From positions 1-64,000 of the forward strand of contig CANNFB010000004.1 of the NCBI GenBank assembly GCA_947503785.1: 64,000 nucleotides of DNA. The letters are read 5' to 3'. Both the position numbers and the translations under genes were made by a program. The notes under the pieces are model-generated. The model had not been told where the DNA came from. It saw only the letters and a list, made by a program, of their open reading frames with translations, and did not search any database. Position 1 is the stretch's first letter; every line of letters starts with the position of its first letter. The stretch comes from an uncultured Campylobacterales bacterium (GTDB taxonomy: Bacteria > Campylobacterota > Campylobacteria > Campylobacterales > Arcobacteraceae). Positions 56,619-60,519 of this stretch are shown here, in pieces.

Positions 56619-58469
56619 TTAATCCTCTTCTTGATTAAAGTAATTAGAGATGACAATTGCATCTTTTTCATTTAGAACCTCTTTTAGTTCTTCAAGACCC
56701 GCACTTCTAATTTTTTCAAATTCTCCAAAATATAAAAGAAGTTTTTTTACTTTTGCTTCTCCTATTCCTTTGATTTGAAGTAAAGAAATTTGTTTATCTT
56801 CTTTTCTTTTTTGTTTTTTATGAAAGTTTATAACAAACCTATGAGCTTCATCTCTTTGTCTTTGTACAAACTGCAATCTTTGGTCACTAGTTTCTAATTT
56901 TAAAGCTCTATAATCACCTTTATCATCCTTATAGTGCACAATATCTTTTGCCGCACCTTTTGCTCTATGTGCTTTTGCATCTACTTTCTCTTTTGCAATT
57001 GCAATAACATCAAGATTAACTCCAGTTGAATTTACAATATCATAGGCTAATTTTAAAAGTGTAGAACCACCATCAATAACCCAAAGATCAGGAGCTGGAT
57101 TTTTTTCAAAACTATCAACTCTTCGCATTAACATCTCTCTCATTTGTGAGTATTCATCTTTTGATTCTAAATTATAGTGTCTAAAGTCTTTTTTATCAAA
57201 GGCATTTAACTCTTCATTCCACACAACCATTGCTCCAACAGTTGCTTGTCCCATCATATGTGAGTTATCGTAAGATTCAATTCTTGATGGTATAGTTTGT
57301 AAAGAAAATAGTTTTTGAAGCTCTGTATATATTGTGCTTTGATTTCTTGATGAATCTATTCTAAGAAGTTCATCACAGTTGTTTAAAGCTATTTGAACTA
57401 AGTCTTTTTTCTTATCTTTTTTAGGATTTACAAGTTTGATTTTTTTTGAGAACTTATTATATAAAAATTCTTCAATATCTTCCTTTTCTTCTAGTTCTAT
57501 GCCTGTTAATACTTCTTTTGGTAATACTGGAATTTCATTATCATAGTAATTTATAATAGCTCTTTTATAAGCTTCATTTAAATCAATATTTAACTCTTCA
57601 TCTAAGAAATTAATTTTTATAAAATCATAAGAAGAAGATGTAAGTTTTCCATCCCTTATAAACATTCTAACAACTACAGCTTTTTTATTTGAAGCTTTAA
57701 TTGCAAAAACATCTAGATTTTCATTTGTTGCTAAATCCATACCAGATTTAATTTGAGATTTTTCTATAGTTTTTATTCTATCTCTTAATTTCATTGCTTC
57801 TTCAAATCTAAAATCTTCTGAGTATTCCATCATCTTTTCATTTAGTTTTGAAATAAGTTTTGATTTATTATAAATATAATCAATAGCAGTATCTACAATC
57901 TTTGAATACTCTACTGTTGATATCTTACCTTCACATGGAGCATGACATCTTTTGATTTGATGAAAAAGACAAGCTTCTTTTCCTTTAATACATGATTTTT
58001 TTTGTACTAGGGGCACTATCTCATAAATACTATCTAGCATATCTCTAGCACCTGTAGAGTAGGGACCAAAGTATTTTATGTTTTTATTTTTATAAACTTT
58101 TCTTGTGATTTCAAGTCTAGGAAATAATTCTGTGTAATCAATATAAATATATGGATAGGTTTTATCATCACGAAGTAAAATATTGTATTTTGGTTTAAGC
58201 TGTTTAATAAGAGAATTTTCTAAAATCAAAGCATCATGTTCATTTGGTACTACAATCCACTCAATACTAAATGTTTCCGAAATCATTTTGTAAATACGAG
58301 GACCTAGTTTATCAGAAGGTAATAGTTTTGGAGTAAATTTAAAGTACGATTTAACTCTATTTTTTAGTATTTTGGCTTTACCAATATATAGTAATCTTCC
58401 ATCTTTATCAAAGTATTGATAAACGCCAGCATCGTTTGGTAGTTGTTTTAGTTTTTCTTCTAATTGCAT
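56619..58469 (-). CDS. uvrC: UvrABC excinuclease subunit C
   Basis: A 616-residue UvrC. The GIY-YIG nuclease is at the N-terminus ([19 protein letters not shown], about 14-32), a Cys cluster ([20 protein letters not shown]) follows, then a UVR motif ([15 protein letters not shown]), an RNase H-like endonuclease domain ([10 protein letters not shown]), and C-terminal helix-hairpin-helix motifs ([13 protein letters not shown]). It makes both cuts in nucleotide excision repair. Together with alr and Sel1 it forms a tight minus-strand cluster. Confidence 0.96.
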
Positions 58470-58566: not shown

Positions 58567-58615
58567 AAATAATTATTAAATAAAAAGTATGGTAAAATAT
58601 GATAAAGGAACTCAT

Positions 58616-58837
58616 GTGACTAGAAAAATGACTATAACTTTGGAAGAATCAATCCTTTCAGATTTAGATAATGCTGCTTTATCTAGTGGTAAAAAGAAAA
58701 GTCAGATTATAAGAGAAGCATTAAGGTCTTATTTAAATATTGCATCAAAAGAAGAGAAAGCTAAACTTTGGGAAGATGAAAATAAAATTGCAATCAAAGA
58801 GTACCTTTCTTACTTGATGTTCAAAATGATATTTTAA
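58616..58837 (+). pseudogene. ccdA-like antitoxin, 3'-truncated
   Basis: A ribbon-helix-helix protein of the CcdA type. I prefer the GTG at 58616, with AAAGGA six bases upstream; the ATG at 58589 overlaps a probable -10 (TAAAAT, 58593-58598). The RHH fold is MTITLEESILSDLDNAAL / KSQIIREALRSYL, and KLWEDENKIAIKEY matches the CcdA toxin-binding tail. After this the expected tail is missing: the last residues (LSYLMFKMIF) are ccdB sequence read in another frame. DNA binding may survive, but toxin neutralisation should be impaired. Confidence 0.72.
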
Positions 58838-59055
58838 AGTCAATGAATACACGTGTGGTTATTCAATTAGTTAGAGATTCAAAACCTTTTAAAGGCTTGA
58901 CAAAAGAGTTTATAATAAATGCAGAAAGAGTATATCTATTTACTTCTCAAATGGGTACTGTAAACTTAAATGAGTTAGAGAAAAAAGTTTGTTCATTATC
59001 TAAAAATAAAGAAGAAATTAAAAACTCTATTGACTTTTTAATGTATGGATATTAA
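58798..59055 (+). pseudogene. ccdB-like gyrase toxin, 5'-truncated
   Basis: The frame with RVPFLLDVQNDILKSMNTRVVIQL (58798 on) matches CcdB (E. coli [22 protein letters not shown]), and the end IKNSIDFLMYGY matches IKNAINLMFWGI. The first dozen or so codons of ccdB and its start are missing, so no start codon exists in frame before the internal ATG at 58843. The gyrase-poisoning C-terminal W-G-I is Y-G-Y here. A single deletion fusing ccdA to ccdB out of frame explains both broken ends. A shortened product from 58843 is possible but unlikely to be active. Confidence 0.75.
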
Positions 59056-59772
59056 ATGCCTGGACGACTAAGTATTTATGATGATAAAGCATTCAAAGTT
59101 GATGCTTCTAGTTTAATACAAAATGATATGATAGAAGAATTAACTCCTAGATATAATATACCTCCTACAACTCCAATACCAGCTTTATTAAACAATGGCA
59201 ACTATTTGTATACACACTTTGGTTATTTGCCTTCTTGGGCTATGTCAAAGGCTTCTATGAATATGAATGCTCGCAGTGAAAGTATTTATGAGAAGAAAAC
59301 TTTTAGAGAGTCATTTAAATACAGACGTTGTATTATTCCTATAAATGGTTTTTATGAGTGGGAAAAAGATGATAAAGAAAAAATACCATATCTTGTAAGT
59401 GATTTAGAAAATGATTATTTAGCACTTGCTGGAATCTGGGATGAGTATTTTGATGAACAGTTAAATATGAAGATTGTGACAATTGCTTTGATTACTTGTG
59501 CTGCAAATGAAAAACTAGGAAAAATACATCATCGTATGCCTGTAGTCTTAGAAAAAAAAGATTTTACAACTTGGCTAAATAGTGGAGATATAAAAGAAGT
59601 AAATAGTTTGTTTAAAATATATCCAAATGAAAAAATCAATATTTATGAAGTTACAAATGAAGTAAATAAAGTATTATTTGATGAGGTAATTTGTATTAAA
59701 AAAGTGGAAGGAAAGAAAGAAAAGGATTTACCAAAAGAGATAAAAGAAGTAGGTCAACTATCTTTGTTCTAA
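59056..59772 (+). CDS. SRAP/YedK-HMCES family protein with Pro2 in place of Cys2
   Basis: A 238-residue SOS response-associated peptidase-like protein. Family residues are kept: N34 (RYNIPPTTPIPAL), N71-A-R73 (NARSE), E101 (GFYEWE) and H158 (IHHRMPVVL). The hallmark MCGRF is MPGRL, so the universal Cys2, which links to abasic sites, is Pro. If Met is removed, Pro becomes N-terminal, as in Fpg/MutM, where Pro1 forms a Schiff base with AP sites. The start at 59056, directly after the ccdB-like stop, fixes Pro2 without ambiguity. The end overlaps the phosphotransferase by 15 bp tail to tail. Confidence 0.85.
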   Translation: MPGRLSIYDDKAFKVDASSLIQNDMIEELTPRYNIPPTTPIPALLNNGNYLYTHFGYLPSWAMSKASMNMNARSESIYEKKTFRESFKYRRCIIPINGFYEWEKDDKEKIPYLVSDLENDYLALAGIWDEYFDEQLNMKIVTIALITCAANEKLGKIHHRMPVVLEKKDFTTWLNSGDIKEVNSLFKIYPNEKINIYEVTNEVNKVLFDEVICIKKVEGKKEKDLPKEIKEVGQLSLF

Positions 59773-60519
59773 AGCTTTAAACCACAAACTCCAAAGGTTT
59801 TCATATACAAGTTTATAGGAAGCTAGTTTTTTTATATCTTGACTTTTAACTTTTTTAAAATACTTTTTTAAAAGTATTTTTTCTTGTTTTTTCTTTAAAT
59901 TGAATTCAAAAGAAATATTTGCAAGATCAAAGAAAATATCATTTACACAAGAAAATTCCCAATCAATAAATTTTACTTTATTTTTATTAAATAAAATATT
60001 GTTTTTATTTAAATCATGATGGCATAAAACTTTTTTAAATTTATACTTTTTTATTTTTTCAAATTCTTTTAAAGATGCTTTGATTATTTGTTTTGATTTC
60101 TTGTCTTTTAGTGTTTTTTTATAGTTTTTAAAGTCATCTTCCATTTTATATGGTTTATCTTTTACTTTTATATTATGAAGTTTTTTAATACTTTTCACTA
60201 AAGTTTTTATATCTTTTTTCTTTAGTTTTTCTTTATGATGACCTTTTAAAAAGTTGCAAATCATTAAAGAATTTTTTTCGTCATGAATATAAACTTTTGC
60301 AGCTATATTTTTTTTAAATGCTTTATTTTGGATTTTAACTTCATTTTTTCTTGATTTTTTATTTGTATGAGCATATTTAAAAGCTCTTAAAATATACTCT
60401 TTTTTAGGAGTTTGTATTTTATATAAGATATTACAAACCCCTTGATTTTCTAGTTTTTCTAGTTTTAGTACTTTAGTATTTTTAAATAAGTTGTATTTTT
60501 TTATTTGGTTTATTTTCAT
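59758..60519 (-). CDS. Choline/ethanolamine kinase-like phosphotransferase
   Basis: A 253-residue, strikingly lysine-rich member of the aminoglycoside phosphotransferase/choline kinase fold. The Brenner motif HHDLNKNNILF (167-177) gives catalytic Asp169 and Asn174, and IDWEFS (185-190) supplies the metal-binding Asp186. An N-terminal EYILRAFK could provide the ATP-contacting Lys/Arg. The substrate is unknown; choline, ethanolamine, thiamine or sugar kinases share this pattern. It is downstream of the glutathione peroxidase gene on the same strand, 13 bp away. Confidence 0.78.
   Translation of the reverse strand: MKINQIKKYNLFKNTKVLKLEKLENQGVCNILYKIQTPKKEYILRAFKYAHTNKKSRKNEVKIQNKAFKKNIAAKVYIHDEKNSLMICNFLKGHHKEKLKKKDIKTLVKSIKKLHNIKVKDKPYKMEDDFKNYKKTLKDKKSKQIIKASLKEFEKIKKYKFKKVLCHHDLNKNNILFNKNKVKFIDWEFSCVNDIFFDLANISFEFNLKKKQEKILLKKYFKKVKSQDIKKLASYKLVYENLWSLWFKALEQR

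Follow-up and report, generated by a model that had tools for sequence, protein, structure and literature searches.

The window, that is the whole stretch of 64,000 nucleotides analysed here, contains a gene for a member of the SRAP family (PF02586) in which position 2 is occupied by Pro and not by Cys. The gene, its putative functional residues and its immediate neighbours are as follows.

58589..58837, plus strand: truncated remnant of a CcdA-like RHH antitoxin, from a Pfam match and comparison with a congener (genomic context).
58843..59055, plus strand: remnant of a truncated CcdB, its stop codon lying immediately before the start codon of the SRAP gene (context, outside the proposed mechanism).
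59056..59772, plus strand: SRAP protein of 238 amino acids with Pro instead of Cys at position 2, from a Pfam match and the translation.
59059..59061, plus strand: codon 2 (CCT), encoding Pro2, the putative amine nucleophile, predicted to become the N-terminal residue once Met is removed.
59266..59274, plus strand: N71-A72-R73 (N75 and R77 in YedK), positioning and DNA-binding residues by alignment.
59356..59361, plus strand: E101-W102 (E105 and W106 in YedK), by alignment the general acid/base for Schiff base formation.
59497..59499, plus strand: Cys148, adjoining the conserved Thr147 (A150 and T149 in YedK, by alignment).
59527..59529, plus strand: H158 (H160 in YedK), by alignment the ring-opening acid.
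59755..59769, plus strand: C-terminal QLSLF, behind a charged variable linker, matching the sliding-clamp-binding consensus QL[S/D]LF.
59758-60519, minus strand: choline-kinase/APH-like phosphotransferase, convergent with the 3′ end of the SRAP gene and overlapping it by 15 bases.

The encoded protein starts with MPGRLSIYDDKA and ends with EVGQLSLF, followed by a stop codon at 59770-59772. An in-frame TAA (59053-59055) abuts the ATG directly on its 5′ side, so that residue 2 can only be Pro, and an upstream start with a different second residue is ruled out. In Pfam searches the protein matches SRAP with 183.6 bits (cut-off 27.1) over profile positions 1-214 of 214, with no other domain and no match to Fapy_DNA_glyco; an NCBIfam search returned PRK09951 alone, below threshold at 61.9 bits against a cut-off of 349. 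It is the sole SRAP of its genome (2.76 Mb, 54 contigs searched), and its nearest named relative, at 88% identity, is from Poseidonibacter lekithochrous, which suggests that the host belongs to Poseidonibacter or a close relative within Arcobacteraceae (Campylobacterota). Although the protein is only ∼20% identical to Escherichia coli YedK, in a profile alignment to YedK chains its N71 corresponds to N75, R73 to R77, E101 to E105, W102 to W106 and H158 to H160. Its predicted structure (pLDDT 79.2, from 27 sequences) was compared with the PDB using Foldseek, where the top 21 matches are all SRAP proteins and every significant fold match is an SRAP, with E values down to 2e-14 for HMCES and 7e-13 for YedK; the Schiff-base adduct of YedK C2A (PDB 8d2m) is among them. 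The window protein is a full-length member of the SRAP fold.

A first-pass annotation of this DNA had reported an MPGR start with N71, R73, E101 and H158 retained, and a broken toxin pair next to the gene. The coordinates, strand, sequence and YedK alignment agree with the former, and the latter is borne out by the truncated CcdA-like RHH and CcdB remnants, since in a congener (L158) a full-length CcdA (94 amino acids) and CcdB (101 amino acids) lie directly 5′ of the SRAP gene. In 12 of the 13 Arcobacteraceae loci fetched, the SRAP gene lies at most ∼5 kb from a homologue of the window open reading frame at 56619-58469, which we take to be uvrC, and this recurrent proximity marks the Arcobacteraceae SRAP as an old chromosomal gene. 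A PADLOC search gave no match and no link of the SRAP to anti-phage defence. The family name, its annotation and a proposal in the literature (PMC3765255) would make the protein an autopeptidase, a reading to which we attach almost no probability: the proposal has the Cys2 thiol as nucleophile, whose absence from the window SRAP refutes that mechanism here, and the stop codon directly upstream leaves no N-terminal extension that could be cleaved off.

SRAP genes are present in 30 of 104 Arcobacteraceae genomes, representing 7 of 20 genera, and Pro2 is found in all 30, which dismisses a strain-specific quirk, chance or a sequencing error as its origin. The invariant columns among 27 aligned Arcobacteraceae copies include M1, P2, G3, R4, N71, R73, E101, W102 and H158. 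The Pro2 codon differs among copies (CCT in 15, CCA in 9 and CCC in 3), as does the start codon (ATG, TTG or GTG); it is therefore the Pro residue that is conserved, not the DNA. Among the 30 copies, L031 lacks the H158 region through an internal deletion, which shows that the gene can be dispensable, and the sequence of G007 is divided between contigs. Cys2 is present in all three full-length SRAPs recovered from other Campylobacterota (L035, L036 and L037). Residue 2 was sampled in Campylobacterota, Pseudomonadota and some viral contigs; no Pro2 was found among the viral SRAPs of IMG/VR with a readable start.

Pro2 is not restricted to Arcobacteraceae. The 398 Pseudomonadota genomes sampled have mostly SRAPs starting MCGR, together with a short (∼200 amino acids) SRAP paralogue starting MPGR; counts of the Pseudomonadota types refer to selected sequences and not to a random sample. 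When 391 genomes from the order of one carrier of the short protein were searched, ∼75 had a strong match (E < 1e-60), the other SRAPs having E values of 1e-40 or weaker. Among 69 sequences read from this order, 62 have Pro2 and seven have Cys2, all seven stemming from the weaker matches, and the second Pro2 group comprises 63 sequences in total. Clustering of the Cys2 SRAPs from this order with Lutimaribacter (Roseobacteraceae) points to Rhodobacterales as its probable identity. Several of its genomes contain both a Cys2 and a Pro2 SRAP. One genome (G1029) has two Pro2 SRAPs (L219 and L220) ∼2 kb apart, of which L220 bridges the short Pro2 group and the Cys2 SRAPs. The genes for the short protein (L170-L176) often have as neighbours a tesA-like GDSL lipase gene and genes of an ABC transporter that includes an FtsX-like permease; an association of this group with Ku/LigD was rejected, as the neighbours are these lipase and transporter genes and not repair genes.

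A tree built without residues 2 and 148 joins the Arcobacteraceae Pro2 clade (support 100/99) with L037, a Cys2 protein from Campylobacterota, as its sister (98/93), and places the second Pro2 clade (99/95) as sister to the Cys2 SRAPs from the same order (99/98). The AU test rejects a single origin of Pro2 (p=0.0175), which also appears in none of 200 bootstrap trees, in the sample to which the linking sequence L220 and the Cys2 sisters from the same order had been added; on earlier, poorer samples it had not been rejected (AU p=0.519, then 0.229). On the strength of this rejection, Cys has changed to Pro at least twice.

The active site around Pro2 has remained intact. Equivalents of N71, R73 and E101 are kept in all 91 Pro2 proteins, and that of H158 in all 90 having the region. 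In contrast, the SRAPs of Pseudomonadota with Ala2, Thr2 or Ser2 (L141, L143, L144, L145, L149, L150, L151, L115, L116, L130, L122, L136 and L146), which likewise do without Cys2, have lost the H158 and N71 equivalents in 13 of 13 cases and that of E101 in seven, and are probable pseudoenzymes. Their starts are MAGRL or MTGRL (Ala2/Thr2) and MSGRYALF or MTSRYALF (Ser2/Thr2). Site decay preceded the loss of Cys2 in the MCGRYALF group. L121, L131, L133, L134 and L138 have Cys2 (MCGRYALF), no counterpart of YedK His160, and His at the position of Asn75. Across the sequences compared, loss of Cys2 goes with decay of the site except when Pro replaces it, and this retention of the site, set against decay elsewhere, is the strongest sequence argument for Pro2 as a working nucleophile.

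The same data bear on whether the protein has become a non-catalytic relic, or a DNA-binding pseudoenzyme, after loss of Cys2 by drift. Relic status had been considered in the first-pass annotation, and it would fit with the decayed ccdAB pair upstream, the degeneration of the related Ala2 and Thr2 SRAPs and the internal deletion in L031. However, pairwise dN/dS among eight congeners is 0.10-0.24, reflecting strong purifying selection, and Pro2 is invariant with the catalytic residues intact in two lineages, which together make this reading very improbable. The alignment of homologues proposed in the same annotation as a check on Pro2 finds the residue fixed in Arcobacteraceae, with a second origin in another lineage and the whole active site kept, in partial support of its proposal that Pro2 could act as a replacement nucleophile.

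Apart from residue 2, the sole strong difference common to both Pro2 groups is Cys148, present in 89 of 91 Pro2 SRAPs versus 9 of 95 Cys2 SRAPs; Met68 had appeared to be a second shared position, but was an alignment artefact that disappeared in a larger alignment. Such a distribution could reflect a relocated thiol, with Cys148 partly replacing Cys2 by attacking the iminium or the unsaturated aldehyde product, so that a stable cross-link persists. We regard this as improbable, given that an early-branching Arcobacteraceae protein (L029, with Ile) and L219 (with Val) have Pro2 without Cys148, that some Cys2 SRAPs carry Cys148, and that the two independent pairs yield a sign test p=0.5.

In the usual account of the SRAP family, Cys2 is universal and caps abasic (AP) sites as a stable thiazolidine. 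In line with this, the founding survey of the family described Cys as absolutely conserved as the second residue (PMC3765255). Work on YedK (PMC9436759) has shown that the AP sugar is opened by Glu105 and His160, after which the N-terminal amine forms a Schiff base and Cys2 closes the thiazolidine. In the C2A mutant the ring cannot close and the protein acts as a Schiff-base AP lyase through its N-terminal amine, in a manner dependent on E105; the rate constants, given here without units, are 0.05 for C2A and 0.002 for C2A E105Q in the lyase reaction, and 1.7 and 0.2, respectively, in trapping. Because YedK C2A forms a Schiff base and acts as an AP lyase without the thiol, imine chemistry is also expected for Pro2. 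A natural precedent for Pro as nucleophile is mycobacterial Nei2, which acts on single-stranded DNA, uses Pro2 as its essential lyase nucleophile, lacks the initiator Met in its crystal structure and loses lyase activity when Pro2 is changed to Cys (PMC11323726).

By analogy with these systems, the most likely reaction of the natural Pro2 SRAP with an abasic site is formation of an iminium like that of Fpg/Nei, followed by either cleavage or a brief shielding of the site. Removal of the initiator Met, which is standard for Met-Pro-Gly, would expose Pro2. The AP-site sugar would be opened by E101 and H158, as seen for their counterparts in YedK, and the secondary amine of Pro2 would attack C1′ to give an iminium, a step which is textbook chemistry for Pro1 in Fpg/Nei and is paralleled by the Schiff base of YedK C2A. 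Without the Cys2 thiol the thiazolidine ring could not close, and the adduct would consequently be resolved by β-elimination, as in an AP lyase, or by hydrolysis, leaving a short-lived shield. We consider lyase activity the more likely net outcome. A point against the scheme as a whole is that the pocket for Cys2 might be unable to accommodate the ring of Pro.

Hydrolysis of a reversible Pro2 iminium without any cutting would instead produce a transient shield, in effect a quick-release version of HMCES or YedK. It would draw on the same conserved residues as a lyase, a clamp-like tail would suit a fork-protecting role, and for YedK C2A trapping (1.7) is far above lyase turnover (0.05), so that imine formation is much faster than cutting. 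Nevertheless, unreduced YedK C2A does cleave, and the Fpg/Nei-type enzymes that use Pro1 have lyase activity, so that a purely protective outcome appears rather unlikely.

Returning to the proposed lyase, the window genome encodes two HhH-GPD proteins, one AP_endonuc_2 protein and Exo_endo_phos proteins, all of which could process AP sites or 3′ ends; given the HhH-GPD and AP endonuclease-like proteins, there is no obvious need for a further AP lyase. No Fpg/Nei homologue (PF01149) was found in any of the 104 Arcobacteraceae genomes. As this includes the 74 genomes that are also without an SRAP, the absence of Fpg/Nei provides context, not proof of replacement.

The C-terminal tail offers an indication of where the protein might act. 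QLSLF forms the last five residues of the window SRAP, within a tail of low pLDDT, and a matching tail (QL[S/D]LF or QxxLF) follows a variable charged linker in 24 of 28 Arcobacteraceae copies. The consensus also describes the C-terminal motif of Bacillus PolC (PMC12309361). A search of the window genome with the codon pattern of the tail ending gave six matches, not above a reversed control pattern, with the SRAP gene as the sole match within a long reading frame; as there is no excess over the control, it is conservation across species that argues for the tail. Comparable endings in 20 of 89 Cys2 SRAPs show that the tail is not specific to Pro2. Cys2 SRAPs ending in QLDLF, QLSLF or QGSLF include L069, L071, L074-L077, L081, L083-L088, L091-L093, L095, L106 and L155, all from Pseudomonadota. 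It is possible that these too are clamp-binding tails, found in bacterial SRAPs generally, and on this sequence pattern, targeting to forks may be more widespread among bacterial SRAPs. The QL[S/A/T]LF tail at the C terminus of the Arcobacteraceae SRAP probably recruits it to the replication clamp, and the protein would then act on single-stranded AP sites at forks. Human HMCES has a PCNA-binding tail. HMCES offers a parallel, as it is reported to act at replication forks (PMC10250235); no paper describing a clamp-like tail in bacterial SRAPs was found in a literature search.

Taken together, the window SRAP is best explained, with moderate confidence, as a natural Pro2 variant of the abasic-site-reactive SRAP domain that works as a lyase or a short-lived shield. 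We consider the chances evenly balanced for the more specific proposal that a cross-linker of the SRAP/HMCES type has been turned at least twice into a Pro AP lyase resembling Fpg/Nei on an unrelated fold, with one of the lineages targeted to the clamp. A selected change from Cys to Pro in two lineages, with the site otherwise untouched, is in effect the C2A experiment carried out in nature, and Pro2 SRAPs predict an outcome opposite to that of Cys2 SRAPs, namely cutting and not protecting. This raises the testable question of whether cells ever want an SRAP to release or incise AP sites in single-stranded DNA. Annotations as ‘SOS response-associated peptidase’ would accordingly hide at least two chemistries as well as apparent pseudoenzymes, and the clamp-binding-like tail on many bacterial SRAPs would connect them with replication forks, where HMCES acts.

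Among known systems, YedK and human HMCES are closest, having the fold and the N, R, E and H residues in common with the window SRAP. The Cys2 by which these thiazolidine cross-linkers are recognised is missing from the window SRAP and from those of all 30 SRAP-bearing Arcobacteraceae genomes, so that Pro2 would give no stable thiazolidine, and most Arcobacteraceae SRAPs are further set apart from YedK and HMCES by their clamp-binding-like tail. Searches of the freely accessible journal literature found no description of a Pro2 SRAP. YedK C2A (PDB 8d2m, PMC9436759) likewise lacks the Cys2 thiol and keeps a reactive N-terminal amine, but this is the primary amine of a laboratory-made Ala, whereas the window SRAP has the secondary amine of an evolutionarily fixed Pro. 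Fpg/MutM, Nei and mycobacterial Nei2 are AP lyases that use an N-terminal Pro as nucleophile after Met removal, and the window SRAP has a Pro at the same position. Their fold is unrelated to that of the window SRAP, for which a base-excision step is not expected; by analogy, its mode of action is most likely that of a proline AP lyase, although it is not a member of Fpg/Nei.
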